A stretch of DNA of 64,000 nucleotides, from assembly GCA_017557885.1 (NCBI GenBank), contig JAFYXV010000003.1, positions 196,902-260,901 of the forward strand, read 5' to 3'. How positions within the stretch are numbered: position 1 is the stretch's first letter; each line of letters starts with the position of its first letter. Origin of the DNA: a bacterium. Lineage in GTDB: Bacteria; Auribacterota; UBA3054. Below are positions 23,632 to 61,815 of this stretch, in pieces. Both the position numbers and the translations under genes were made by a program. The notes beneath the pieces are model-generated. The model saw only the letters and a list, made by a program, of their open reading frames with translations, was not told where the DNA came from and did no database searches.

Positions 23632-23660
23632 ATTATATCAAAAGATGTTTTCTGAGGCAA
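23632..23660 (-). promoter_or_regulatory. V-ATPase operon promoter
   Basis: Minus strand TTGCCT, 17 bases and a perfect TATAAT (23637-23632). It overlaps the last codons and stop of the S8 protease gene; start predicted at ~23625, giving a ~40-nt leader. Confidence 0.65.
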
Positions 23661-26600
23661 CGAAGCGCCAGAAGCGCCACCAGGAACGCCAGGACGCCCG
23701 GTTCGGGAATGTACGGGCCTATGGAGACGGTCAGGTCCCTGACGTCCACGTAGGTCCCGTCGTAGGTCAGTTTGAAGCAAAGGCTGTCCAAACCGTCGGA
23801 TTCCGATATCTTCGTGCCGGTGATCTTGCGGCCCTCGTCCTTCGTCGTATCGGCGAAGGTGATGGTGTCGAGATACTTCACGCTGTTGGTGAAGGAGATC
23901 TCGAAGGAATAGTCGAAGAAGGAACCCAAGGGCGTCTTGTTCGTGAAGAGGCCGGTGTTCCTCAAATAGTCCGTAAGCGTAACTTTGACGTACTTCTGGC
24001 CGCCTGTCGACATCGTTGTGAAGGCGCTCTGGAACTGCCTGTGAGGCTCGTCCTGCGTGTGGTAGAAGTAGCCTTTGAAGTCGTCAGAGAACCTAAGCTG
24101 GCAGCTGATGGTCAGAGGCAGATCGTCTATCATTCCTTCGGGAAGGCCGACCTGGCAGAAGGCGCCCTGCTCGGTTATCGGCAGCGAAGAATTGCGCGCC
24201 TTAGTTACTCTGACAAAGCCTTTGTCCTTATATATGCCTGAGGTCGCGGTCGTGCTGGCCTCGCATTTCCAGTTGGCTTCGACGTCTTCCATCGCGGTGC
24301 CTTCCGGGTAGCTGTCGAAACTGGACTTGTAAAGGACGTAGCCGGATTCGTCGCAGCCGGAGGGGCAGCCGAAGCGCATGGTCTTCTTGCCGGCAGATCC
24401 CGCGTCGATCTCTATGGTTCCCCAGAGATAGGTCGCCCTCGCTCTGTTGTCCGGGCCCGTGATCTTGAGGTTGCAGACGTCGTTGAAAGTGCCGCTCATA
24501 GGTTCGACGCTGAATTTGTCGGCGCCTTCCGTAATCCTGGCGGTGAAAGTGATGCTTTCCGTGGCGTAGCTGTTGGTCAGCGGCCATTCCATAAACTCTT
24601 CGCCGAGGTTGAAGGAACGGGAGCACACGAAAAGCTTCGGAGTCTCGAAAGCTTCCGTTCTCATGTTTATGTTGGCGACGTCGAGCTGGCTGCCTCCTTC
24701 CGGCAGATAGATGCGCATGTCCTCGATGGCGCCGCCGGAAACGACCTTTTCGCCGTCGATGGCTTTGTCCACGGTATAGACCTTGTCGCCGAAGAAGACG
24801 CGCTTCAGGGTCTTCTTGCCGGCGTCCGTGTTGATCCTGTAGCCGTAGCGGAAGAATTCGCCCTGCGGCACCGTGTCGGTGATCAGTTCGGGGGTAGAGG
24901 CCAGGTCGGTCAGGTAAAGCTTCACATTTCCGCCGACGCAGCGCAGCTCGCTTTGGAACTGCCTGCTCAAGGGGTCCTGGCCCACTATGACTCTGGCGCC
25001 GTCGCCGCTCACTCTAAGCGTGGAGTCGAAAATGAAATCGTGGTCCTCGGCGTGCGTTTCCGGCATACGGGCCTTGAAATAGACGCCCGCTTCGTCTTCC
25101 GTGGAGGTGGCGTCGGGCTCTCCGTAGAGCGTCAGCGTCTGTTCCCTGCTTTCGTTGGAATACCAGCGCTCGATCTTAAGGTCGTCGAAGGCGAAGCCGC
25201 CGTTGCCGAACTGGTAGAAGCGCAATATTGTGAAGTAGTCGTTGTTGCCGGCGCCGCCGGTAGGTCCGTAGCAGTCCTCCACCGTGTCCCCTATCTTTAC
25301 TCTCCTCAGGGTGTGCTTGTTCATATTATTGTCGACTTCCACCCAGAGTTCCACGTCCGTCCACTCGTTCTCAACTAACCTAGTTTTCGAGCGGTACTGC
25401 GGATGGTTGCCTTCCGTGGAACCCGAACGAATGACGTACTTGCGGCCGTACTTGGTGAAGAAGAGCTCGCCGACAGTTGGCGTCCACAAAGAGAACGATT
25501 TGTCCGCCGTGCCCCAGGCCTTGGCTTTGAAGCTGAATTTCAGATAGCTGTGGTCGTAGGCTTCGCTCCACTTGGAGGTCAGTCCGCTGATCTTGTAATG
25601 CGGGCAGTAGCTGGAGTTGATGCGGGAGATGTCGAGATATTTCCCGTCCGGCCCGCCGTTTTTAACCATGGTCGTGCCGTTGGTGGAAAGCCCGGCGGCC
25701 AAGGTCCAGCCGTTCTGGCCGATCACGGAAACGTCCGTCTCATAGCCTTCGAAATCTTCCTCGAAGACCGTGTCGATGTAGACGGGGTCCATGAAGGTTA
25801 TGCTTTCGCCCGTTCCGCCCTGTTCAGTCACAGCCACGTCTTCTTCGGCAACTGAGCCGGCGTCGCTTCCCTCGAAGCGGGAAGTGAAGAGCGTATAGCC
25901 CTCTTCGCCGCCGACCGGCACGCCGATCGTTCTTGTGACCGCGCCGCCCTGGCCGCCGTTGATCATGAATTCGCAGACCGGATACGCGCTGGTGGCTTTC
26001 GAAAGATCGGCGTTCAAAATTATGGTCATAGACTTCTCGAAACTGCCGGAAGTCTTGGAGAAGGAGAAAACTTTTTCATAGTTCTTGTTAAAGGAGGCTG
26101 TGAATTCCAGCGTGCAGTTCTCCTCTAGATTGGTAAGGACGATCTCGCAGCTGGCGGAGCCCATTTCAAACTGCGGTTCATTTGCCAGCGCGAGCTTGGG
26201 ATTGCGCTGACTTGTACCGTAGGTGAAGGCGACGCTGGCGACCTGGGGTCCGTTCATGATAGTGGCGGCCTTGACGATCACTTTGTAGGTGCCCGCTTCG
26301 CTGTTGCCAAGATGCAGAATTTCGGTGGTGTCAAGGTGATTGCCGCGGTTGTAAACGGTGCCGCTGGGTGAAATGACGTAAAGGTCAAGGTCGTTGACGA
26401 TCGCTTTCTCAGCGCCGGAAGTGCCGGGATAGTCGCTCCAGGCCAGGGAGACCGTCAGATCGCAGTCAGCCGGTTTCTCAAACGTGTTGGTGGCCGCGGC
26501 GCCGGTCCTACTTAACTGGCATTCGAAGAAGTCCATCTTTCCGTTGGCCGGCGTTAAGCTTTCTCTCAGATTGACGTGGCCGTGGCCTTCCATATAGTTG

Positions 26601-28153
26601 GGCCTGAAATCTGCCACTTCGTCGAAATCGGGATACTGTCCGGGGTAGAGCGTGCGGCAGCCCGCGATCATGATCGCTTTGGTAAGCGAACCGCGGGGAT
26701 TCTCCACTCCCCTAACTTTCTCGAGATATTCCCTGATGACGGCGCAGCAGCCGGCCGCCAGAGGAGAGCTCATAGAGGTGCCGCCGGCGCTGTAATAGTA
26801 TTTGTCCCTGTCCCTGGTCTGCTGTCCGCCGTAGCCGGCGGCCATGATGCCGGAACCGGGGATGACCACGTCAGGTTTCATACGGCCGTCGGCGCAGGGG
26901 CCGCGGCTGGAGTAGCCGGCCAGACCCTGGTGAACGCCGTCGTAATAGCCGCTCTTTTCAGAGGCGCCGACCACGATGGTGCTCTTGGCAGCCGCCTGGT
27001 CGTTGAGCTGGGAGGTCGGTTCCTCCGGACAGTCGTTGTAGTTGCCGGCGGAATGGCAGATCAAAAAGTCGCTGTGATCCCACATCAATCTGTCGTCGGT
27101 GCGCGCGCTGGAATAGTAGCGTCCGCCGCGGCCGGAACCGAAACTGCAGTTCATGATGCGGGCGCCGGCATTGTACATGATCTCGTAGTCCTCGTCAGAG
27201 CCGGACAGGATGCCGCCGCCCGAGGAGCCTGCGCAGAGCACGTAAAGGGAGGCGTCGGGCGCCATGCCGCGGTAAAGTCCGTCGCTCATTTCGCCGTTGC
27301 CAAGCGCGCAGCCGGTCACATGGCTGCCGTGGCTGCCGGCGTCGCTCCAGTCGTCGTAAGTTCCCCTCTGATTGGCTACCCAGGTCGTGCAGCGGCCGAT
27401 GATCACTCTGTCATGGCTGGTGTAGTCGGGGTTCATGTCAGCTATCCTGCCGTTGTCAAGGCCGGTGTCCTGGATGCAGATCATCTGTCCTTCGCCGCGG
27501 AAGCCTTCCATATGCAAATAATCGACGTTCGCCATCGCTTCCGACCTGACGTCGTTGCATTCCGGCATAGCGATCTCGTATTCCTCGATAAAGCGGACTT
27601 CCGGAAGATCGGCCAGCTCCGTTGCCTGCCCTGTCGTCACGGAAGCTATGACGCTCGGTTCGAAATTGCCGGGCGTCAGTTCATATTCGCTGATCCCCAT
27701 CGCTTCCAGTTTTTCAGTGATCACTTTTCTGTACTCAGCTTTTACGGCTCCGATCAGGACCTGAAAAGGCTTCTCTTCTCCCTCCGCCGCCACAGAATCA
27801 GGGAAGGTCATCTTGTATTCCGGCAGGTACGGTCCGAGGTAAGAGAACTTGAAGCGCGCTTTGAGATCACTTAGCCTCGCCTTCTCAACTTCAATGATGT
27901 AGGCGTTGGGGAAGACAAAGCCGTCCACGCGCACTCCGAGACTCGGCAGTTCCGCAAGCTCTTCCGGAGTGAAGTTCGTCATCGGCGCGGCCAGGTAGAG
28001 CGCCGTGCCGTCTATAGTCGCGGGAACGTTCTCGCAGGCGGCGGAGATGGTTGGCTGAGAGGGGTCGATGGTCGCTTTGATCAAATGAATGGGACCGGGG
28101 TCGGCGCTGACAATGCCAGCGGAAACAAAGATGAGCAGAAGGAGCTTTTTCAT
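23633..28153 (-). CDS. Secreted S8 (subtilisin-like) protease with PEP-CTERM tail, paralogue 1
   Basis: The 1506-residue precursor has a signal peptide (residues 1-17), a pro-region-like domain shared with the two paralogues downstream (~18-200; NFTPEE, PNAY, YLPEYKM), and an S8 domain with the Asp229, His275, Ser460 triad (IQDTGLDNG, GSHGSHV, GGTSMSSP) and oxyanion Asn in HSAGN. Then come a P-domain-like part, a jelly-roll type segment starting EDFEGYE, two copies of a module with RQFQS, and a C-terminal tail with PEP, a hydrophobic helix and basic residues. The start overlaps the AEC gene stop by one base (TAATG) with no ribosome site of its own, implying coupled translation. It is probably an exported, exosortase-processed protease; its substrate is unknown. 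Confidence 0.88.
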   Translation of the reverse strand: MKKLLLLIFVSAGIVSADPGPIHLIKATIDPSQPTISAACENVPATIDGTALYLAAPMTNFTPEELAELPSLGVRVDGFVFPNAYIIEVEKARLSDLKARFKFSYLGPYLPEYKMTFPDSVAAEGEEKPFQVLIGAVKAEYRKVITEKLEAMGISEYELTPGNFEPSVIASVTTGQATELADLPEVRFIEEYEIAMPECNDVRSEAMANVDYLHMEGFRGEGQMICIQDTGLDNGRIADMNPDYTSHDRVIIGRCTTWVANQRGTYDDWSDAGSHGSHVTGCALGNGEMSDGLYRGMAPDASLYVLCAGSSGGGILSGSDEDYEIMYNAGARIMNCSFGSGRGGRYYSSARTDDRLMWDHSDFLICHSAGNYNDCPEEPTSQLNDQAAAKSTIVVGASEKSGYYDGVHQGLAGYSSRGPCADGRMKPDVVIPGSGIMAAGYGGQQTRDRDKYYYSAGGTSMSSPLAAGCCAVIREYLEKVRGVENPRGSLTKAIMIAGCRTLYPGQYPDFDEVADFRPNYMEGHGHVNLRESLTPANGKMDFFECQLSRTGAAATNTFEKPADCDLTVSLAWSDYPGTSGAEKAIVNDLDLYVISPSGTVYNRGNHLDTTEILHLGNSEAGTYKVIVKAATIMNGPQVASVAFTYGTSQRNPKLALANEPQFEMGSASCEIVLTNLEENCTLEFTASFNKNYEKVFSFSKTSGSFEKSMTIILNADLSKATSAYPVCEFMINGGQGGAVTRTIGVPVGGEEGYTLFTSRFEGSDAGSVAEEDVAVTEQGGTGESITFMDPVYIDTVFEEDFEGYETDVSVIGQNGWTLAAGLSTNGTTMVKNGGPDGKYLDISRINSSYCPHYKISGLTSKWSEAYDHSYLKFSFKAKAWGTADKSFSLWTPTVGELFFTKYGRKYVIRSGSTEGNHPQYRSKTRLVENEWTDVELWVEVDNNMNKHTLRRVKIGDTVEDCYGPTGGAGNNDYFTILRFYQFGNGGFAFDDLKIERWYSNESREQTLTLYGEPDATSTEDEAGVYFKARMPETHAEDHDFIFDSTLRVSGDGARVIVGQDPLSRQFQSELRCVGGNVKLYLTDLASTPELITDTVPQGEFFRYGYRINTDAGKKTLKRVFFGDKVYTVDKAIDGEKVVSGGAIEDMRIYLPEGGSQLDVANINMRTEAFETPKLFVCSRSFNLGEEFMEWPLTNSYATESITFTARITEGADKFSVEPMSGTFNDVCNLKITGPDNRARATYLWGTIEIDAGSAGKKTMRFGCPSGCDESGYVLYKSSFDSYPEGTAMEDVEANWKCEASTTATSGIYKDKGFVRVTKARNSSLPITEQGAFCQVGLPEGMIDDLPLTISCQLRFSDDFKGYFYHTQDEPHRQFQSAFTTMSTGGQKYVKVTLTDYLRNTGLFTNKTPLGSFFDYSFEISFTNSVKYLDTITFADTTKDEGRKITGTKISESDGLDSLCFKLTYDGTYVDVRDLTVSIGPYIPEPGVLAFLVALLALRCLRKHLLI

Positions 28154-30528: not shown

Positions 30529-30966
30529 CTATCCCATCAAAAGCGTGCGGGACTGGGCCGGGCCGAAGGGCGTGTACTCTCCGGAAAGCATGGAATAAAG
30601 TTGGGAAACCGCTGGGTTGTGCCCCACTATGAGCATGTGGGAAAAGCCCTTCTGGTTGTCCAATATGATGTTGTAAAGCTGGCCGGCGGAACAATCGTAG
30701 AGCTCTTTAATTTCCCTGATCTCGGTCCCCTCCATAAAGAGGCCTTTCAAATGTTTCAACGTTTCCTGAGCTCTCAGGGCTGTGCTGACCAAGACGACGT
30801 CGGGGGGCGGCGCAGTGCCGGAAAGTTCTTTGGCAAGGCTTTTCGCCGCCTCGACGCCCTTTTCGCTCAAAGGCCGGTCGTGGTCGCTTCCGCAGAAATC
30901 GGAAGCGGCCACGGCGTAGGCGTGCCTCACGAAGGTGAGGCTTTTCAGCTCAAGAACTTTCGACAT
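30529..30966 (-). CDS. sixA: SixA-like phosphohistidine phosphatase (histidine phosphatase superfamily)
   Basis: This 145-residue protein has the phosphate-binding RH signature FVRHAYA (residues ~12-18), the conserved DRPLSEKG (~31), STALRAQET and the second catalytic His in IVGHNPAVSQL (~113). Its size and lack of extra domains match SixA, which removes phosphate from phosphohistidine proteins such as HPt domains or NPr. The ATG overlaps the protease 2 stop by one base (TGATG), so it is translated in step with the protease, an unusual partnership. It ends at a strong terminator. Confidence 0.82.
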   Translation of the reverse strand: MSKVLELKSLTFVRHAYAVAASDFCGSDHDRPLSEKGVEAAKSLAKELSGTAPPPDVVLVSTALRAQETLKHLKGLFMEGTEIREIKELYDCSAGQLYNIILDNQKGFSHMLIVGHNPAVSQLYSMLSGEYTPFGPAQSRTLLMG

Positions 30967-33900
30967 CAGCTTCTCTTTCTCGTTAAGAGCAGCGCAAAGG
31001 CTGCGGCAAGAGCCAGCAAAGCCGGTTCCGGCACGGGCGATTCGAGCGTCACCCTGAGGTCTTTGACGTCAACATACGCGCCGCTGCCGGTCAGATTGAG
31101 GCGGAGATAATCCACCTGGTCGGAAGAGGCGACTTTCGTTCCTGTGATCTTGTACCCTTCCACTTTGGTCGTGTTGTAAAAGGTGATCTCCTCAAGCTTC
31201 TTGTAGGATGGCAGGGCGTTCAGTTCGAAATCATAGGCGATCCATTCGCCCCTGGGAGCGTTCTTGGTGAAGAGGCCCGTGTTCCTCGTGTAGTCGGTCA
31301 AAGAGAGCTTGATCATCTTCTGCCCGCCCGTATTGATGGCGGAGAAAGCGCTCTGGAACTGGCGCTGATCCTCGTTCTGCGTCAGGTAGAAATAACCGGC
31401 GTAGTCTTCCGGGAATCTAAGCTTGCACTGGACGCGGAAGTTCAGATTGGTGCTGTGGCCCTCCGGTGCGCCTATGAAAATGAAGGCTCCCTGGTCGGCG
31501 TTGGGCAGAGTGGAAGTTTTGCTCCTGCCGAAACGGAGGAAGGAGCTGCTTCCGTCGTTCTCGACAGTAACGGAGAGCTTTTCGTTTTGGCTCCAGCTGC
31601 TGTCGGTTACGTCCAGCTCCTCGCCGACACTATTTTTGAAATCGTCGGAATAGAGCAGGTACCCTCTCCCGTCGTTGCCACGCGGACGGATGAATTTCTT
31701 CGTTATGGTTCCGGCCTCGCCGGCTTCGATCTTAACAACGCCCAAGTCTTTCCCAAAAGTTGTGGAATCGTTCTTGCAGCGGATCGTCAGAGCCGTCATG
31801 TCGGTGAAGGTTCCGGATTCCGGCGAGACTTCGAACAATTCGGAACCGGAAACTATGCTGGCGGTGAAATTGATCGCCTCGGAAGGCGCCGCGTTCGTAA
31901 GAGTCCAGGCTGTCTCCGTCTCCCCTATCCTGAAGGGTCTGGGAACGACGCCGAGGCTTGCTTTCTCAAGGGGAAGCAGCTTGACTTCCAGGCTCTTCAC
32001 CATCGCCTCGCCCGTGCATTTGGGAAGGTACATCCTGACGGAATCCACGGAAGCCATAGGCTTGACGGCGGAACCGGTCAGCTGTTTCTCCACGGAAATA
32101 TTGTCGCCGTTGATGAAAAGCCTGTGAAGGATTTTCTTTCCGGCGGCGGTGTTGATATTGTAACCGTAGCTTATGAAATCGTTGGTGGGGAATTCGGTCT
32201 CGATGAGTCCGGGATCATCGGCAAGATCCGTCAATTCCAGTTTGAAATCGCCGCCCTCGTTCACGAATTGGCTCTGGAACTGGCGGTTGGAGCTGTTCTG
32301 CCCCAGCACGAATTTCGAGACCTTGTCGTTCAAGGACATCTCGACGTTGAACTGCAGGTCGAATTTCGTCTGCAATCCCGCCGGCAGGCCGATCTTGGCC
32401 AAGAGGCCGTCGGAATCGGGATTGGAGGAATTCGTTCTTTCGACATTCTTCATGATCGCTATCTTCTCGTAGGGAACGTCGGAAACATAGCGTTCGATCT
32501 TTATGTCGTCGATGCAGAATTCGCCCTCGCCCCACTGGAAGAAGCGCAATACGGAGAAATAGTCGTCGCTGCTGGCTTTACTAAAAACGCCGTAGCAGTC
32601 TTCCTCAACGCCGGCGAACTTCAGCCTTCTAAGTATGTGGCGGTTCGCGCCGGCAACTTTCGTGGCGTCGGCTTCTATGAGCATTTCCAGATCAGTCCAT
32701 TCGTCGTCCCTGAGATAGCCCATGGACCTGAACCTGTTGCCAAGTTCGTCCTTGCCGTCGGAATCGACGATGAAGCCGCTGGCGTGGCGCTTGAAGACTG
32801 GTTCGGCAATGTCCGGGGTGAAGAAGGAGAAGGTCTTGTCTCCCCTGCCGGACATCTTCACCTTCGCCGAGATCAGGAAATAGCCGTGAGCGAAGGATTG
32901 CGTCCATTTGGTCTTGATGCCCTGGACTTTCAGGTGAGGAGCGTAATAGCCGGTGAGATACCTGACCTGAAGATACTTGTTGGTGACGCCGCCTTTCAAT
33001 TCGCAGCGGACGATGGAGCTGCCGTTGGTGGCGGGGCCGTAGCCCACCGTCCAGCCGCCTTTGCCTATTATGCTCTCGTCCGCTTCGTAGCTTTCGAAAT
33101 CCTCGCTCTTCACAAGGTCGTAGTAATTCGGCGAGACGCTCTTCATTTGGAAATCAACTTCCTTGGTGGCGGAAAGCGCGGCGTCCTCTTCTACGAGATC
33201 AGTGAAAAGATCCTGCGTGAAATCTTCCTTGTAAAGCGTGTAGCCTTCCTCGTCGGAACCGTTGGGCAGAGAGATCTTCCTTATAAGGCAGCCGGCGGAT
33301 TGCGCGTTGATCTTCACTTTGCAGTAAGGACGCGCGGAGTTGGATCTGGTAAGGTCAGCCGTCAGAATTATGGTCTCGGAGGAAGAGAATCTGCCTTCTT
33401 CTTTGGAAATGGTGAAGAGGCCTTCGGGGTCGTCGATTATTTCGGCGCGATAGCCGATGTAACTGTTGGGAACGGTGTTCGTAAGGCTAAGTTTGCAAGT
33501 CGTCTCTTTCCAGGGGAAGAAAGGCTCCTCCGTGAAGGCGAGATTGCCGACTTTCCAGCCTTTGCCGTAGCTGAAGACCACGGCGCAGGGCTGGACGCCC
33601 TCCATGATGTTATAAGCTTTCACTATAACGGCGTAGCGGCCGGCTCGCGTGTCGCCGAGCCTCATAGTTTCGATGTTGTTGAGGTGGTCGTCCAAAGTAT
33701 GGACCGTGCCTCCGGGTTCGACGACGTAAAGGTCGAGGTCATTGATGAGGGCTTTTTCCGAGCCCCAGTTTCCGGGATAGTCCGTCCAGCAGAGGCCGAC
33801 GTTGAGGTCGCAGCCCGCGGGTTTTTCAAAATAGTTCGTGACGGCTTTCCCCGTAGAGGCGAAACTCATTTCGGCAAAAGACATCTTGCCGTCCGTGGGC

Positions 33901-35537
33901 TCGAGGCTCTCCTTGACGTTCACGTGCCCGTTGCCTTCCACGTTGTTCGGACGCTCGGGAGGGATCTCCATGAAACGGTCGTACTGGCCGGGGAAAAGCG
34001 ACCTGGCGCCCACGCACATGACGCATTTTACCAGCGCGGCGCTGGGGCTTTCAACGTGCCTGTTGTTGGTGAGGTAATCCCTGACCACCGCCGCGCAGCC
34101 GGCCGCGATGGGGCTCGCCATGGACGTGCCGCCCATATAGGTGTAGTACTGGGCTCTGGTGCTGGTCTTGTCGGCGCTGGCCAAAGTCGAATAGACGCCG
34201 GTGGCCGGAGCGATGACGTCCGGTTTGGTGCGGCCGTCGGCGCAGGGGCCCCTGGCGGAAAAGTCCGCGATGCCCTGATGCACGCCGTCGAAGGGCTCGC
34301 ATTCCGTCGCCAGTTTCGGACGCCAGTTCTCGGAACCGCCAACGGTTATGATGTTCTTGGCGGAGGAGTCGTACATGATGGCGCTCTGGGTGGGAAGGTC
34401 GATCTTCTTGTTGCCGTTGCCGCTTGAGAAGCAGATGGTATAGTCCGGGTGATCCCAGATGACTTTGTCGTAGAGGCGCGCACCGCTGCCGTAGTAGCCG
34501 TCCGAGTTGCTGCCCCAGCTGTTGTTCATGACGCGGGCGCCTTCGTTGTAGGTGTTGACAAGGTCGTCCTCGTTGCCGGAATAGATGTAGCCGCTCCTAA
34601 GTCCGGCGCACAGGCAGAAGATGTCCGCTTCGCAGGCCATGCCGCGGAACTGGCCGTTGCTGGCGGCGCCGTTTCCGACTGCCGAACCGGCCACGTGGGT
34701 GCCGTGGTTGCCCGCGTCGGCCCAGTCGTCATAGGAGCCTCTTTCGTTGGCGATGCCGGTGGTGGCGCGGCCCTTTATGTTCTTCCCTAGAAAGTCCGGG
34801 TGGATCTGGTCGGTGGTGCCGTTGTCAAGGCCGGTGTCCTGAATGCAGACCATCTGTCCTTTGCCGCTGTAGCCGTCCAGCTGCAGGTCGTCAACGTTGC
34901 ACAAGAATTCGGATCTGGAGACGTCGTTGCAGATCTCTTCCTCGGCATAGGGCTCTATGAAAGCCACGTCTCCCCTCTTCGCTATCTCATAAGCCTGGCT
35001 GTTCGTTATGAGCGCCTTCACGCAGGGTTCCAGCGTGTTGAAGAGCTCTTCCACCTCTTTGGCGCCGACATTTTCCAGCGCTTCTTTTATCGCGGGAAGA
35101 TATTCCTTCCTGATGGTGCCGACCTGCACGGGATGGTATTCCTCTTCGCCAACTGCGGAAACGCTGGCAATAGCGGCTCCTGGATACGTCATTTTGTATT
35201 CAGGCAGATATTCCCCGACGTAAAGCAGGGAAAAACGCTCTTTCAAAGCGGCCAGTTCGGATTCCCCCGCCTCGACGAAATAGGCGTTGGGCGGAATGTT
35301 GCCCTGAATCGTGACGCCGAGGGCTTTGACCTCTTCGCGTTCCTCCGGCGTAAAGTTTCTTTCAGGCTGCACGATGTAGATGCGCGTGCCGTCGGCTGTG
35401 GGAGCGCAAACGGGAGCTTGCAGACTGTTGACAGCCGGAGCGCCCGGATCGATGGTCGCCTTGATAAGCTTGATCTTGCCGGGATCGGCGAGAAGGGTTA
35501 GGGAAATGAATGCGGTTAAAAGAGCGAGTTTTTTCAT
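30966..35537 (-). CDS. Secreted S8 protease with PEP-CTERM tail, paralogue 2
   Basis: The 1523-residue precursor shares the whole architecture of paralogue 1: signal peptide, pro-region-like domain (NFTPEE, IPPNAY, YLPEYKM), S8 triad Asp234, His278, Ser472, the EDFESYE jelly-roll type segment, two RQFQS modules and a PEP-CTERM tail (PVPEPALLALAAAF then TRKRS). The S8 domain is closer by eye to paralogue 3, which follows the same N-terminal sequence with few gaps. An AAGGAA ribosome site precedes the start. It lies 26 bases downstream of paralogue 3 and is translationally coupled to sixA. Exported; function unknown. Confidence 0.88.
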   Translation of the reverse strand: MKKLALLTAFISLTLLADPGKIKLIKATIDPGAPAVNSLQAPVCAPTADGTRIYIVQPERNFTPEEREEVKALGVTIQGNIPPNAYFVEAGESELAALKERFSLLYVGEYLPEYKMTYPGAAIASVSAVGEEEYHPVQVGTIRKEYLPAIKEALENVGAKEVEELFNTLEPCVKALITNSQAYEIAKRGDVAFIEPYAEEEICNDVSRSEFLCNVDDLQLDGYSGKGQMVCIQDTGLDNGTTDQIHPDFLGKNIKGRATTGIANERGSYDDWADAGNHGTHVAGSAVGNGAASNGQFRGMACEADIFCLCAGLRSGYIYSGNEDDLVNTYNEGARVMNNSWGSNSDGYYGSGARLYDKVIWDHPDYTICFSSGNGNKKIDLPTQSAIMYDSSAKNIITVGGSENWRPKLATECEPFDGVHQGIADFSARGPCADGRTKPDVIAPATGVYSTLASADKTSTRAQYYTYMGGTSMASPIAAGCAAVVRDYLTNNRHVESPSAALVKCVMCVGARSLFPGQYDRFMEIPPERPNNVEGNGHVNVKESLEPTDGKMSFAEMSFASTGKAVTNYFEKPAGCDLNVGLCWTDYPGNWGSEKALINDLDLYVVEPGGTVHTLDDHLNNIETMRLGDTRAGRYAVIVKAYNIMEGVQPCAVVFSYGKGWKVGNLAFTEEPFFPWKETTCKLSLTNTVPNSYIGYRAEIIDDPEGLFTISKEEGRFSSSETIILTADLTRSNSARPYCKVKINAQSAGCLIRKISLPNGSDEEGYTLYKEDFTQDLFTDLVEEDAALSATKEVDFQMKSVSPNYYDLVKSEDFESYEADESIIGKGGWTVGYGPATNGSSIVRCELKGGVTNKYLQVRYLTGYYAPHLKVQGIKTKWTQSFAHGYFLISAKVKMSGRGDKTFSFFTPDIAEPVFKRHASGFIVDSDGKDELGNRFRSMGYLRDDEWTDLEMLIEADATKVAGANRHILRRLKFAGVEEDCYGVFSKASSDDYFSVLRFFQWGEGEFCIDDIKIERYVSDVPYEKIAIMKNVERTNSSNPDSDGLLAKIGLPAGLQTKFDLQFNVEMSLNDKVSKFVLGQNSSNRQFQSQFVNEGGDFKLELTDLADDPGLIETEFPTNDFISYGYNINTAAGKKILHRLFINGDNISVEKQLTGSAVKPMASVDSVRMYLPKCTGEAMVKSLEVKLLPLEKASLGVVPRPFRIGETETAWTLTNAAPSEAINFTASIVSGSELFEVSPESGTFTDMTALTIRCKNDSTTFGKDLGVVKIEAGEAGTITKKFIRPRGNDGRGYLLYSDDFKNSVGEELDVTDSSWSQNEKLSVTVENDGSSSFLRFGRSKTSTLPNADQGAFIFIGAPEGHSTNLNFRVQCKLRFPEDYAGYFYLTQNEDQRQFQSAFSAINTGGQKMIKLSLTDYTRNTGLFTKNAPRGEWIAYDFELNALPSYKKLEEITFYNTTKVEGYKITGTKVASSDQVDYLRLNLTGSGAYVDVKDLRVTLESPVPEPALLALAAAFALLLTRKRS

Positions 35538-35563: not shown

Positions 35564-38188
35564 CTATTCAGTGCTGTTGTCGTTTATCCATTCGTTAAGG
35601 CCTATCGCCAGGGAAGCCGGATCTCCTTCTCCGGAGGAGATCAGTTTCATCTTGAGGCTGAATTTTCCGGTCTTCTTTTTCACGCTGGCTTTGACCGTGG
35701 TCCCTTCCGCGGGAGAACCGGAATAAACTATCACCTTGCCTTTGTCCTCGCCCCGGCAGAGAGAGTCACCCACGAACCTGACATCGCCGTCATCGGTGTT
35801 GATGATAGTCATCTCGGTATCTTCGCCGTAGGCGTCCTTCAGATCGTCCAAGATGACGCCCTTCCCTTTTATCGCGGCTTTGTCAGGCGGCGTGTAATAG
35901 ATCATGCTGCCGTCGTAAGTCAAAAACGAGATATAGTTCGTGGCCCCTTTGTCGGAATAGGAGAACTTGTCGTTCTTCGTCGCGTAAGAGAAGGAAAATC
36001 CGCCGTCTTTAACGACAAGTTTCCCCTTCTCCAGCTTGGGGGAAAACTTTCTGCCGATAAAGATGTTTTTAACAGTGTTGAAGATCCCCATGTAGCCGGT
36101 GTACTCGACCGCGGAGCGGCCTTTGTTTCCAAGCGTCCCCGTAAGCGAGAAATTAAGGCTGCCCTTCCAGTCCATCGGCCTGAAAGTATAGCGGCCTTTG
36201 CCGGAGGTGCGCTCGGAGGCGCGGTAATGGAAGACCAGGGCGCATGGCTGCGGGCCCTGCATGATGTTTTTGGCTCTGGCGATCACCTTGTACTCGCCTT
36301 CCGGAGCTTCGTAGATGTGCAAAACTTCCACGTTGTTAAGGTGGTCGTTAAGAGTGTGCTTCATGCCGTTGGGATCGATAACATAGAGGTCGAGGTCGTT
36401 AACCAGCGCCTTGTCCGCGCCGACCGAACCGGGATAGTCGGACCATACGAGCCCGACGTTCAGGTCGCAAACGGCCTTCTTGGAATAGACGTTGGTGACA
36501 GCCTGGCCGGACTTGCTTAAAGTGAATTCACTGAAAAACATTTCGCCGTCCGTGGGCTCCAGGCTCTCCTTGATGTTGATGTGCCCGTGGCCTTCCACTG
36601 TGTTGGGCCTGACGTCTTCAAATTCTTTCTCATACTGCCCGGGGATAAGCGTGCGGGCGCCGGTCACAAGGATCGCTTTCACAAGCGCGGCGCTGGCCGA
36701 GTCAATACCGTGCTTTTTATTGAGATAATCCCTTATTATGGCGCAGCAGCCGGCCGTAATGGGGCTCGACATGCTGGTGCCGGACATATAGCAGTAATAT
36801 TCACTCCTTACGGAAGAGTGCACATTGCTGGACAAAGTCGAATAAATATAAGTTCCCGGCGCCACGACGTCCGGTTTGATCCTGCCGTCGCGGCAGGGGC
36901 CGCGGCTTGAAAACCAGGCCATGCCCTGGTGCACGCCGTCGTCCGGCTTGGCGTCGCTGCCCTCTTCCGGACGGTAGCTTTCCGCGGCTCCCACCGTGAT
37001 GACGTTCTTGGCGGCGGAAGCCTGGTTCATGGTGCTTTGCGTGGGAACATAGGCTTTTTTGTTCGCGTTACCGGATGAAAAGCAGACCGTGTAGTCAGGG
37101 TAGAGCCAGATGAGGGAATCGTATAGACGGGCTTCCGAACTGTAATAGCCGTCGCTGGAAATGCCCCAGCTGTTGTTCATGACGCGGCAGCCGGAATGGT
37201 AAGTGTTCGTAAGATCCGCCGCGTTGCCTACGCCGATATATCCGTCGCTCCTGCCGGCGGCCAAAAAGAAAAGCGAAGCGTCCGGCGCCATGCCGCGGTA
37301 CTGGCCTTTGCTGGCTGCTCCCGTGCCGACGGCGGAACCGGCCACATGCGTGCCGTGATCGCCGTTGTCGCGCCAATCGTCGTAAGAGCCGCGCTCCTGG
37401 GCGACTTCGGTGGTGGCGCGTCCTATGATCTTCTTATTCTTGAAGTCGGGATGAATGTTCGCCATGTCGCCGTTGTCCAAGCCCGTGTCGTGAATGCAGA
37501 CCATCTGACCTTTGCCGGTGTAGCCGGCTAACTGCAGATCTTCTAGATTGGCAAGGTTTCCGCTCTTGGCGACGTCGTTCAAAGGCTTCGCCGGAGCATA
37601 AGGCTCGATGAAAGCCACGTCTCCCCTTTTGGCGATCTCTTTTGCCTCGCTGTTCGTGAGTTTAGTCCTGACGCAGGGCTCCAGGGTACCGCTGACTTCC
37701 GCAATATCCGGCGCGCCCAAAGCTTCCAGCGCTTTCACGATATCACCTAGGCATTCCTTCCTGAAAGTTCCCACCTTGACGGGATAGGAGATCTCCTCGC
37801 CTGCCGCGTTGACACCCGTTTCGTCAGCGCCCTGGTAAAGCAGTTTGTATTCCGGCAGATATTCGCCGGCGTAAAGGATTGAGAATTCTTCCAAGAGCGC
37901 CGCAAGATCTCTTTCGGACGACTCAACGAGATAGGCGTTGGGAGGAATGTTGCCGCGGAAAATGATCCCAAGCTTTTCAACACGAACGCGCTCCTCAGCC
38001 GTAAAATTAGTTTCCGGCTGCACGATGTAGAGACGCGTGCCGGCGGAGGAAAGCGAACAGATCCGTGTTTGAGGACTGTTTACGGTAAGCGCGGCCGGAT
38101 CTATGGTGGCCTTGGCAAGTCTTATTTGGCCGGGATCGGCGAAAAGGGAAAGAGCGAGCAGCGAAAGAAGCAGCGGGAGTTTTTTCAT
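35564..38188 (-). CDS. Secreted S8 protease, paralogue 3, with a distinct C-terminal domain and no PEP-CTERM
   Basis: The 874-residue precursor has a signal peptide, the shared pro-region-like domain, and an S8 domain with triad Asp234, His278 and Ser472 (CIHDTGLDNG, HGTHVAG, SGTSMSSP), followed by the P-domain-like part. From residue ~664 it switches to a ~200-residue C-terminal domain (MDWKGSLNF... YSGSPAEGT... TGKFSLKMK) also found as a separate protein encoded just upstream. The jelly-roll modules and PEP-CTERM tail of paralogues 1 and 2 are missing, so this one should be released or anchored differently. AAGGGGTG ribosome site; 10 bases after the upstream gene's stop. Confidence 0.88.
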   Translation of the reverse strand: MKKLPLLLSLLALSLFADPGQIRLAKATIDPAALTVNSPQTRICSLSSAGTRLYIVQPETNFTAEERVRVEKLGIIFRGNIPPNAYLVESSERDLAALLEEFSILYAGEYLPEYKLLYQGADETGVNAAGEEISYPVKVGTFRKECLGDIVKALEALGAPDIAEVSGTLEPCVRTKLTNSEAKEIAKRGDVAFIEPYAPAKPLNDVAKSGNLANLEDLQLAGYTGKGQMVCIHDTGLDNGDMANIHPDFKNKKIIGRATTEVAQERGSYDDWRDNGDHGTHVAGSAVGTGAASKGQYRGMAPDASLFFLAAGRSDGYIGVGNAADLTNTYHSGCRVMNNSWGISSDGYYSSEARLYDSLIWLYPDYTVCFSSGNANKKAYVPTQSTMNQASAAKNVITVGAAESYRPEEGSDAKPDDGVHQGMAWFSSRGPCRDGRIKPDVVAPGTYIYSTLSSNVHSSVRSEYYCYMSGTSMSSPITAGCCAIIRDYLNKKHGIDSASAALVKAILVTGARTLIPGQYEKEFEDVRPNTVEGHGHINIKESLEPTDGEMFFSEFTLSKSGQAVTNVYSKKAVCDLNVGLVWSDYPGSVGADKALVNDLDLYVIDPNGMKHTLNDHLNNVEVLHIYEAPEGEYKVIARAKNIMQGPQPCALVFHYRASERTSGKGRYTFRPMDWKGSLNFSLTGTLGNKGRSAVEYTGYMGIFNTVKNIFIGRKFSPKLEKGKLVVKDGGFSFSYATKNDKFSYSDKGATNYISFLTYDGSMIYYTPPDKAAIKGKGVILDDLKDAYGEDTEMTIINTDDGDVRFVGDSLCRGEDKGKVIVYSGSPAEGTTVKASVKKKTGKFSLKMKLISSGEGDPASLAIGLNEWINDNSTE

Positions 38189-38198
38189 TTGTCACCCC

Positions 38199-38927
38199 TT
38201 AATCCTTGTCTTCCAGGGGAGGATCCGGCACCCAGCAGCACAAGCTCGGCACCACAGAGGTGAAATTCGTGTTGGAAGCCTCCTTTTTGACTTTCATCTT
38301 GAAATTGACTTTTCCGGTCCTTCTTTTCAGAGTAACTTTGATCTTCGTTCCTTCGTAAGGCGAGCCGCTATAGGTGAAATTCTGGCCAATCGGCTGCAAT
38401 TCGACCATGGAATCGCTTACGGCGAAAGGTTTTTCTTCGTCGGAATTGTAAAGCGTGAAGCCGTAATCGTCGTTGAAGTAAGGCATCACGGAATCAAAGA
38501 GCGTTCCCTGCCCTTTGATCTTTCCTATTCCCTGGTTAAGTTCGTTGGAATAGTACATGTCGTCGTTTTTATTAAAAGTCAGAATGGAGATCCAATCCTC
38601 GGCGTAGCGGTCGTTGTAAGTGAATTTTCCTGTCGCAATGGTGTAGATAAATTCGGAACAGTCGTCGCGGAAAACAAAATTGCCGTTCCTCTTTTCGGGA
38701 ATGACCTTCATGCCTACACAGATGTCGTTAAGTTTGTTATAAAGGCCTATCACCTGGTTATCGATAACTTCGTTGAGTCCGGCGCTCGACAAAAAACCAG
38801 TCAGTGTCAGGGTGAAATTGCCCTTCCACGAAAGGGGTAACAGGTCATAATGGCCCTTTTCCGGCTCCTCTTCCGCAAACGCCGCACAAGTGAGGAGCAA
38901 AGCTAAAATGAACAATACTTTTTTCAT
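38199..38927 (-). CDS. Small secreted protein homologous to the C-terminal domain of S8 protease 3
   Basis: The 242-residue precursor starts at MKKVLFILALL, with a clear signal peptide and a GAGGTG ribosome site; the open frame extends 16 codons further upstream. The mature part aligns along nearly its whole length with residues ~664-862 of protease 3: WKG...LTG at the start, VGMKV, KFTYND, WISILTF, IKGQGTLFD, YSGSPYEGT, RTGKVNFKMK. It therefore looks like a detached copy of that domain. It ends with CC near the C-terminus. First gene of the protease 3-protease 2-sixA operon. I know no family for this domain. Confidence 0.82.
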   Translation of the reverse strand: MKKVLFILALLLTCAAFAEEEPEKGHYDLLPLSWKGNFTLTLTGFLSSAGLNEVIDNQVIGLYNKLNDICVGMKVIPEKRNGNFVFRDDCSEFIYTIATGKFTYNDRYAEDWISILTFNKNDDMYYSNELNQGIGKIKGQGTLFDSVMPYFNDDYGFTLYNSDEEKPFAVSDSMVELQPIGQNFTYSGSPYEGTKIKVTLKRRTGKVNFKMKVKKEASNTNFTSVVPSLCCWVPDPPLEDKD

Positions 38928-38984: not shown

Positions 38985-39022
38985 AAAAAAAGAAAAAGGC
39001 GCGCCTCAGGAAGCGCGCCCAT
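38985..39022 (-). terminator. Terminator of the infA-rfbC-xer operon
   Basis: The stem GCGCGCC (39013-39019) with GGCGCGC (38998-39004) and an ~8-nt loop is followed on the minus strand by a T-rich run (TTTTTCTTTTTTT). It lies ~30 bases after the recombinase stop. Confidence 0.8.
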
Positions 39023-59219: not shown

Positions 59220-60446
59220 TTACTTTACGATGGCAAGCCTGACGCCTCTGTTGCCGCCGCGGTCGGTGGTGGAAAAGCCCATCCTTCTGGAGGAACGGCA
59301 TCTTATGGCCCATTCGTTGTAGGCGCCGCCTCTGATGACGCGGTAGTTGGTTTTGACAGCGGGTCCGACCGGATCGAGCGTGAAAGCCGTGTTGTCGGCC
59401 GCATAGCGGTCAATGCACCATTCCCAGACGCCGCCGTGCATGTCGTAAAGTCCGAGGGCGTTCGGGAGTTTCAACCCGACGGAGTGCAGAGAGTTGCCGT
59501 TGCCCCTGTACCAGCCAAGGCTGTCAAGGACTGTGTTCGTCGTGCCGTTGCCCGTTCCTTCCCAGGCGACGCCGTTGTTGAAAGCGGTGTCAGTGCCGGC
59601 GCGGCAGGCCTTCTCCCACTGCGCTTCCGTAGGAAGATCGAAGGTGAAGGAATTTCCGGCTTGTTCACGCAGTCTGCCGAGGTAGCTGTCGGAGTCGACC
59701 ATGTAGTCGGTGTGTTCCGGCCAGGTGCTGCCGAAAACGCTGCCCCTCATCATAGCGTAGGAAACGTTGGTCGCCGGCAGAGTGGAATTAGGGTCGACAG
59801 ATCCGTTCTGGGCGGGGTTCTCGTTGAAGAGATTGGAGAACTGCCCCTGGGTCATTTCATAAACGCCGATGTAATAAGCTTTCGTGATGGTGACGGTGTG
59901 ACGCACCTCGTTGTTGTTGTTGTCGAAGTGGCCGGTCTCCTCTTCAGGGGAGCCCATCTCGAAAATTCCGGGCTCCACACGGCGGAACCAAAGCTCTTTG
60001 GTCTTGGCCGCCGACTCCAAAACTTTGGGGAGCGTGGCGGAGAAATCCATCTTTCTGTTGGCGATGTTGTAGTGAAGATACGCGGCGCCGCGTGTAACTT
60101 CTTTGGCGCTCACGCCGATCTTCATGTTTTCAGTTCTTATAGCGCGGGCTGAAGCGTTGGAATCCCAAGTCACGCGCTTGGCGCCCGAACCCAGCGCGAT
60201 ACCGCAGGCGCCGTCGCCAACTAGGTCCTGCAGTTCGAAGCATTCACTGCCGTCGATGCTGGCATAAAACTTAACGCTGTAAACGGGGCAGGTCTCCTCG
60301 CTGGGAGACAGGATGTAGTTGATGTCCACCTTGCCGTTCCAGGGCCAGCGCTGCTGGCAGCTGACGGATACGACCGCATCGGCCAAAGCCTGCGCGGCAA
60401 AGAGGGCCGCCAGGGCGATGATCGTTGTCTTGCTGTTTATTTTCAT
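59220..60446 (-). CDS. Secreted SUMF1 (formylglycine-generating-enzyme-like) domain protein, copy 1
   Basis: The 408-residue precursor has a signal peptide (cleavage near residue 22), a shared N-terminal beta domain (VSCQQRWPWNGKVDINYIL; ~25-115) and a SUMF1 domain (~140-405: YIGVYEMTQGQFSNLF, LPTEAQWEKACRAGT, GVWEWCIDRY, VIRGGAYNEW, SSRRMGFS). The paired catalytic cysteines of true formylglycine-generating enzymes are not evident; the end reads NRGVRLAI where active enzymes have a Cys-containing GFRC. It is therefore probably not a sulfatase activator, more likely a binding or structural protein. Paralogue of the upstream gene; last of the operon. Confidence 0.82.
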   Translation of the reverse strand: MKINSKTTIIALAALFAAQALADAVVSVSCQQRWPWNGKVDINYILSPSEETCPVYSVKFYASIDGSECFELQDLVGDGACGIALGSGAKRVTWDSNASARAIRTENMKIGVSAKEVTRGAAYLHYNIANRKMDFSATLPKVLESAAKTKELWFRRVEPGIFEMGSPEEETGHFDNNNNEVRHTVTITKAYYIGVYEMTQGQFSNLFNENPAQNGSVDPNSTLPATNVSYAMMRGSVFGSTWPEHTDYMVDSDSYLGRLREQAGNSFTFDLPTEAQWEKACRAGTDTAFNNGVAWEGTGNGTTNTVLDSLGWYRGNGNSLHSVGLKLPNALGLYDMHGGVWEWCIDRYAADNTAFTLDPVGPAVKTNYRVIRGGAYNEWAIRCRSSRRMGFSTTDRGGNRGVRLAIVK

Positions 60447-60477
60447 ACAGTTTCCTGATATTGTTTCGAATTTAAAA

Positions 60478-61815
60478 CTACTGGATGATGATCGCGATCC
60501 TGAAGCCGACGGAGGAAGTCGGCATATTGCCGGTCGTCCCCTTTTTCGGGTCGCAGGAGAAACGTCTGGCGGAACGGGCTCTGACCGCCCATTCGTCCCA
60601 CGCGCCGCCGCGCAGAGAGCGGGTGTTTCCGGTCATGGGGCCAGGCGAGTCTATGCTTGTGTAAGAGCCGCCGCGGTAAACTCTCGTAATGCACCACTCC
60701 CAAACGTTGCCGTGCATGTCGTAAAGGCCAAGGGCGTTGGGAAGCTTCTGGCCGACGTTTTGGCAGCGGGTATAATCGGTATTGTCGCTGTACCAGCCGA
60801 GCAGGTCAAGATTGTCGCAATGTCTCTGTACCGCCGCTTCCTCCTCTTTCGTCTCGACGACCTCGGCTTCCCCGCCTTCGCTATCAGCGGAGTTTATTCC
60901 GCTTTCAGGATCTTCTTCCGGAACAAGCCAGGCTACGCCGTTGTTCCAGGCGGTGGTCGTCCCGGCGCGGCAGGCCATTTCCCACTGGGCGTCGGTCGGA
61001 AGGTCGAAGATCAAGCCGTTGTCAACCAAGCTGCGCACAGTGTAAAAGAAACTGTTCGTATCGATGCGGTAGTCCTGGTTCTGGGGCCAGGTGCTTCCCA
61101 GCTCGCTTCCTCTCAGGTCGTAATAGGAAACGTTGTTGACCGGGCAAAGCATTTCGCCCGGGCTGGAAGTGGAGGGGTTCTTTCCCGTGATGTTCTGGTA
61201 CTGAGCCTGGGTGACTTCAAGGACGCCGAGATAGAAGGCTTTCGTCACCGTAAGGGTGCGCTGCACTTCGGCGGCGGCGTTCTTCTTGTGGCCGATCTCG
61301 TTCTCCGGAGAACCTGTCACAAACGTTCCCGGCTCAATTCTTCTGAACCACATCTGGGTCGTCTTGGAGGCTTCATTCTCAAGGTCCGGACCAACGGAGC
61401 TTATGTTAAGGCTTCCGTCGCTCAGGGTAAGGCAGATATATTTGGCGTTCGCTGTGACGTCCTGAGCGGCGACGCCGACGCTAAGGTTCTGGGTGTTCGT
61501 AAAGGGCTTGTCGGCGCCGGCGTTCCAGGTCACGCGCTTGACGCCCGAACCGAAAACATAACCCCTGGAGCCTTCGCCTTTGAGGCTTTGGAGAGCAAAA
61601 GGCTCGCCGTTGTCTATTTTGCCGAAGAAAGCGACGGCGAAGACAGGCGAAGTGGCCTCGTTGGTCGTTTCCACCGAATAATCGATGTCAACTTTGCCGT
61701 TCCAGGGCCAGCGCTGATGGCAGCTGACGGTGACGTTGACAACCGGAGTTTCCCCGAAGACAGCCGCGGAAAGGCAGAACACGGTCAATAACAAAACATT
61801 CAAAATCGTTTTCAT
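60478..61815 (-). CDS. Secreted SUMF1 domain protein, copy 2
   Basis: The 445-residue precursor has the same layout as its neighbour: signal peptide (to ~20), N-terminal domain with VSCHQRWPWNGKVDIDYSV, and a SUMF1 domain (FYLGVLEVTQAQYQNI, LPTDAQWEMACRAGT, GNVWEWCITRVYRGGSY, LRGGAWDEW, SARRFSCDP). An insertion of ~40 residues, rich in Glu (EAEVVETKEEEAAVQ, ~300), separates it from copy 1. A Cys in RRFSCDP is present, but no GFRC. It lies 2 bases after the PEP-CTERM gene. Confidence 0.82.
   Translation of the reverse strand: MKTILNVLLLTVFCLSAAVFGETPVVNVTVSCHQRWPWNGKVDIDYSVETTNEATSPVFAVAFFGKIDNGEPFALQSLKGEGSRGYVFGSGVKRVTWNAGADKPFTNTQNLSVGVAAQDVTANAKYICLTLSDGSLNISSVGPDLENEASKTTQMWFRRIEPGTFVTGSPENEIGHKKNAAAEVQRTLTVTKAFYLGVLEVTQAQYQNITGKNPSTSSPGEMLCPVNNVSYYDLRGSELGSTWPQNQDYRIDTNSFFYTVRSLVDNGLIFDLPTDAQWEMACRAGTTTAWNNGVAWLVPEEDPESGINSADSEGGEAEVVETKEEEAAVQRHCDNLDLLGWYSDNTDYTRCQNVGQKLPNALGLYDMHGNVWEWCITRVYRGGSYTSIDSPGPMTGNTRSLRGGAWDEWAVRARSARRFSCDPKKGTTGNMPTSSVGFRIAIIIQ

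Follow-up and report, generated by a model that had tools for sequence, protein, structure and literature searches.

Stand-alone propeptide-like subtilisin inhibitors of the I9 family, of which POIA1 is an example, are free homologues of a domain that belongs to the subtilase itself. In the dentilisin operon prcB-prcA-prtP of Treponema denticola, the product of the first gene, prcB, is a small, exported interaction partner of PrtP, and when prcB is lost prtP is transcribed but the PrtP protein is not detected (PMC8167434). At the C-terminal end of exported proteins, PEP-CTERM has been proposed as an exosortase sorting signal (Haft 2006, PMC1569441). The locus described here lies in the window, i.e. 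the whole stretch of 64,000 nucleotides that was analysed, and associates an S8 protease, whose C-terminal module takes the place of a PEP-CTERM-type tail, with a small gene encoding a free homologue of that same module. Its features are as follows.

38997-39020, minus strand: strong terminator-like hairpin, 3' of the XerC/D-like gene and upstream of the free gene (10 pairs, 7 GC, then TTTTTCTTTTT)
38199-38927, minus strand: free module gene, 242 residues, a signal peptide then an acidic mature protein (ATG with upstream GAGGTG)
38247-38852, minus strand: module proper in the free protein (family HMM, residues 52-253 of the stop-to-stop ORF, E 4e-71)
38592-38822, minus strand: first internal repeat of ~77 residues, mature residues 18-94 (hhalign, half versus half)
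38283-38531, minus strand: second internal repeat, mature residues 115-197 (hhalign, half versus half)
35564-38188, minus strand: S8 protease 3, 874 residues (PF00082, E 7e-43; D234, H278 and S472 invariant)
37574-38137, minus strand: protease 3 pro-region, residues 18-205 (structure model, local pLDDT mostly 60-85, whole model poor)
36635-37516, minus strand: S8 catalytic domain, residues 225-518 (PF00082)
36218-36553, minus strand: predicted beta-rich domain after the catalytic domain, residues 546-657 (low-confidence whole model)
35621-36193, minus strand: protease 3 C-terminal module, basic, pI about 9 (alignment and family HMM)
30966-35537, minus strand: S8 protease 2, paralogue of 1523 residues with a PEP-CTERM-type tail, next in the operon (coordinates; same order in L032-L034)
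30969-31031, minus strand: protease 2 PEP-CTERM-type tail, PEPALLALAAAFALLLTRKRS (read from the sequence)
23633-28153, minus strand: S8 protease 1, paralogue of 1506 residues (PEP-CTERM-type tail at 23636-23707)

The free gene, whose ATG is preceded by a Shine-Dalgarno-like GAGGTG, is separated from protease 3 by 10 bp, and protease 3 from protease 2 by 26 bp. The terminator-like hairpin indicates that the free gene opens the transcription unit, and the single operon proposed in the first-pass annotation, which had given correct coordinates for both genes, is upheld by this spacing and by the hairpin. The export of both products, also proposed there, is supported. Protease 3 belongs to peptidase family S8, as established by its PF00082 match and its invariant Asp/His/Ser triad. 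The open frame of 990 residues that runs antisense to protease 2 (31455-34427, plus strand) is probably a composition effect.

The free protein matches the last ~215 residues of protease 3 from end to end. Residues 656-874 of the protease are identical to it at 70 of 222 positions (32%; 52% positive; BLASTP E 7e-38), and the Smith-Waterman score between the free protein and the protease 3 C-terminal segment is 306, to be compared with a mean of 35, a standard deviation of 5.5 and a maximum of 60 over 500 shuffles. The end-to-end alignment claimed from first reading is thus significant; all the motifs that had been listed as common are present in it, and over a set of eight sequences, free and fused, drawn from four species, 45 columns are invariant. 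Pfam and NCBIfam contain no match to the free protein or to the C-terminal domain, which agrees with the earlier statement that no named family could be given, and a PDB sequence search returned no match worth naming for either. When queried with individual proteins, and also with the complete set of 21 family members of the genome, Pfam, NCBIfam and the PDB sequences gave only scattered hits to single members; the free protein, used as a query, retrieved no viral relatives.

The module consists of a duplicated unit of ~80 residues: profiles of its two halves align to each other (hhalign) with a probability of 92.9% and a score of 42.9, the maximum of 60 column-shuffled controls being 16.3. 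An AlphaFold (AF2) model from eight sequences (pLDDT 67, pTM 0.66), in which the order strand-helix-strands occurs twice, suggests at medium confidence that the module is beta-rich. With this model (pLDDT 67), Foldseek returned nothing under 1e-3 from the PDB, and the best VIA-align Z was 6.1 (AdoMetDC, then TBP), which is not above background; the AdoMetDC, TBP and double hot-dog folds, compared over the whole module, gave VIA-align Z values of at most 6.1. In BFVD, three matches under 1e-3 had a TM of at most 0.30 and none was convincing. No solved fold stands out, which does not suffice to make the fold a new one.

A profile of free and fused sequences detected 21 copies of the module in the 2.24-Mb genome to which the window belongs (G000), and 113 copies in the eight genomes of the genus, this one included. 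Elsewhere in the phylum, across its 36 other genomes, it had no match, and it found zero copies in the 376 genomes searched outside the genus. An apparent distant hit, in G087, was a TPR-like protein aligned mainly across its signal peptide and was discarded. The named relatives are uncultured bacteria from ruminant metagenomes (goat, yak and buffalo rumen). Eleven of the 21 copies are free, with an exported-type N-terminus wherever it was read, eight serve as the N-terminal domain in FGE-sulfatase (PF03781) proteins, one lies on protease 3 and one ends a 324-residue protein; in sister species, the module is also found at the end of a 2381-residue ORF and of two proteins of 792 and 486 residues. 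Seven free copies of 208-230 residues stand in tandem (L046:4903-9705, i.e. G000:C11:42902-47704, minus strand) and neighbour a carbohydrate-binding protein of the Cthe_2159 type (PF14262, E 2e-48). These seven have strongly diverged among themselves and are nearly identical across species. On the basis of these sequences, we regard the module family as unnamed, so far restricted to the genus, extracellular and used in many secreted proteins.

Further features of the FGE-sulfatase proteins were noted. The genome has 39 PF03781 domain matches, with up to four in one 1756-residue protein (e.g. L051:5087-10357), and the window itself holds two such proteins without a module hit (59220-61815; C2:256133-256879 and 257394-258239). 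The C-termini of the FGE proteins are variable around RGG.W..CRSA.R and resemble the targets of diversity-generating retroelements; such an element was considered and set aside, no reverse transcriptase having been found.

This distribution bears on the idea, put forward in the first-pass annotation, that the protease's own domain had been set free. Most copies of the family are unconnected with proteases, being free tandem genes, FGE N-termini or the C-termini of other proteins, so that the reading as a detached protease domain is too narrow. It also weakens the inhibitor and decoy roles suggested at the same time; surface partner or chaperone are the best remaining of those early options, in view of the opposite charge and the shared clade described below. 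That the free copy inhibits protease 3, or protects against it, by occupying the module or the active site is highly improbable, even though its gene is adjacent, its product exported and its sequence homologous to part of the protease. Protease 3 already has a pro-region of its own, which in the structure model is predicted to contain two beta-alpha-beta-beta-alpha-beta units, like I9 propeptides, and the module family lies mostly outside proteases, fused or free in many contexts. Moreover, no inhibitor family was matched by the free protein at E <= 1 (Pfam, NCBIfam), and neither protease 1 nor protease 2 has its own partner of this kind. The full-length model of protease 3 (pLDDT 47) is too poor to position the module relative to the active site.

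The two partners differ in charge. The fused modules are basic in all 35 distinct copies (pI 8.4-9.7), and the module of the protease carries a net charge of +5 to +9 in the four species where both partners were computed. The mature free protein adjacent to the protease is acidic in each of the six species where the copy is complete (pI 4.8-5.2, net -4 to -8), an acidity that depends partly on the tails, as the module core alone has a pI of 5.5 to 7.9 in complete copies. Such an opposition would be expected of paired acidic and basic homologues, although charge by itself is no proof of binding.

Conservation of the pair across the genus is extensive. As the earlier proposal to look for a free domain beside an S8 protease in other genomes anticipated, the protease with its module occurs in all eight genomes, with the free gene ahead of it as far as contigs allow: orthologues are found in G001-G006, and in G007 only the last residues of the gene survive, at the contig end. 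In relatives, the free gene and the protease are 8-16 bp apart, and the order free gene, protease 3, protease 2 recurs in L032-L034. The upstream neighbours are RNase H and YebC in L032-L034 and L076, and a XerC/D-like gene in the window and in L075 (G006); as they differ, the free-protease unit has been kept across two contexts. In a tree of 81 modules, a quick tree with long branches elsewhere, the eight protease modules and the seven adjacent free copies form one clade (SH-aLRT 99), within which each side is a clade of its own (SH-aLRT 94 and 98, respectively). This topology argues for one fusion and one duplication before the species split, both products having been kept. With a dN/dS of 0.10-0.23, the free gene evolves under purifying selection. 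The module of protease 3 occurs as two types that are ~50% identical across species, when the catalytic domains are 82% identical; the module alone has thus rapidly diverged or been replaced between species. G002 has a type-II module, yet its free copy is no closer to the free copies of the other type-II species, which argues against tight co-evolution of the two partners and leaves room for another explanation, in which both bind the same glycan or matrix.

According to this explanation, the module would bind an anionic extracellular glycan, either the bacterium's own exopolysaccharide or plant pectin; fused copies would tether enzymes and FGE-domain proteins to it, and free copies would be independent matrix or adhesin proteins without direct contact with the protease. 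The uniformly basic fused modules, their presence on several unrelated exported proteins, the eleven free copies of the genome and the position of the seven tandem copies next to the PF14262 protein are consistent with it, as is a free copy that does not follow the type of the protease module. It is weighed down by the acidity of the protease-adjacent free copy, unlike most of the family, by the conserved pairing and joint ancestry of the free gene and the protease, and by the searches with Foldseek (PDB) and VIA-align, which recognised no known glycan-binding fold. We consider it unlikely, although it deserves consideration.

The C-terminal end of protease 3 provides a further line of evidence. 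Among the eight S8 paralogues of the genome, it is the sole carrier of the module; a PEP-CTERM-type tail terminates each of the other seven, and likewise the S8 homologues from further genera of the order (G008, G010 and G013). The tails of proteases 1 and 2 (PEPGVLAFLVALLALRCLRKHLLI and PEPALLALAAAFALLLTRKRS, respectively), read directly, have the PEP-hydrophobic-basic organisation and lie outside the PF07589 list at E <= 0.01; with that reservation, the claim that the module replaces a PEP-CTERM tail holds. The region of these two proteases presumed to be jelly-roll gave no significant Pfam hit. Protease 3 itself ends in ...GLNEWINDNSTE, with no PEP motif, hydrophobic helix and basic end, and a PEP-CTERM-type tail is absent from every fused module protein whose end was read. 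Both an exosortase and PEP-CTERM proteins are present in the genome. S8 paralogues number at least eight in each genome, that of the window and those of its sisters alike, and several of them are arranged in tandem (e.g. L156 and L157); G002 has a second protease-2-like copy (C68:24050-26023).

We tentatively propose that the module is an alternative device for surface retention or assembly, and that the free copy is a dedicated, co-secreted partner; it is a possible reading that we favour without holding it for probable. Protease 3 would be exported with an N-terminal propeptide handling its folding and latency, and its basic C-terminal module would hold it in the envelope, the extracellular matrix or a complex, standing in for the exosortase-type PEP-CTERM tail kept by the sister proteases. 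The acidic free copy, the first product of the same mRNA, would be co-secreted and would pair with the basic module as a hetero-dimer, thereby assembling or stabilising protease 3 outside the cell. We infer the surface location, the physical pairing and the stabilisation from the homology, the internal repeat, the conserved pair with its joint clade and purifying selection, the replacement of the tail in a genome that has an exosortase, the opposite charge and, by analogy, the dentilisin precedent (PMC8167434). Several observations speak against this proposal: the free copy of G002 does not follow the module type, the acidity of the free protein is due in part to its tails, some free copies are encoded far away from proteases, FGE proteins carry the module at their N-terminus, and no known fold was recognised. 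More broadly, and quite doubtfully, a duplicated fold may have given rise to two sets of proteins, basic docking modules carried by enzymes and display proteins, and free counterparts that are acidic or neutral, which would make a genus-specific, exosortase-independent extracellular assembly, cohesin-dockerin-like in function but drawn from a single protein family.

A family of modules without a name, which one rumen genus has amplified to as many as 21 copies, is defined here. The locus also offers a natural comparison between eight sister proteases, of which a single one has given up its sorting tail and acquired the module. If the free copy binds the fused one, the locus would provide a simple model for the retention of extracellular enzymes without exosortase processing, and possibly a clue to the organisation of enzymes on the surface of rumen bacteria.

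With respect to exosortase sorting, the module occupies, within one S8 family, the C-terminal position of the PEP-CTERM tail, but it is a folded domain of ~200 residues with neither PEP motif nor membrane helix, and is also found N-terminal and alone. Its N-terminal position in FGE proteins shows that it is not a position-dependent sorting tail, and a T9SS C-terminal sorting domain was rejected, as NCBIfam gave no such hit and the module is also N-terminal and free. The free protein shares with the I9 inhibitors its homology to a subtilase's own domain; here, however, that domain is a C-terminal module and not the N-terminal I9 propeptide, and the free protein has no I9 match at E <= 1 in Pfam and no I9 hit in NCBIfam. 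As for the dentilisin operon, membership is ruled out by the PrcB sequence and lipoprotein criteria: the free protein has no similarity to the PrcB family (Pfam and NCBIfam at E <= 1), its orthologues have no lipobox Cys, their signal peptides ending in LFA-EDE, LMA-EDE and VFA-EEE, and protease 3 scores 23 bits against denti_PrtP, for an NCBIfam cut-off of 300. Like PrcB, nevertheless, the free protein is encoded by the first gene of an S8-protease operon, and a functional analogy may be retained. A stricter form of this analogy, in which the free copy would be a periplasmic chaperone or pilot that masks the basic module of protease 3 until export, as PrcB might for PrtP, seems to us rather improbable. 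It would suit a small, exported protein of opposite charge, encoded first and 8-16 bp ahead of its protease in relatives, and has the PrcB precedent (PMC8167434); against it, PrcB similarity is missing in Pfam and NCBIfam, the eight other fused proteins of the genome, of FGE type, have no adjacent free gene, and the sequences lend no support to periplasmic retention. The favoured reading, with a co-secreted partner of protease 3, keeps the likeness to dentilisin in that a small exported protein is encoded first, followed by an S8 protease with a special C-terminal domain, and assembly, here proposed, would take place outside the cell. It differs by the lack of prcA and by a free partner that is homologous to the C-terminal module of the protease itself. 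An accessory exported gene ahead of an S8 protease is an arrangement already known, and it is the module family itself that is unnamed.
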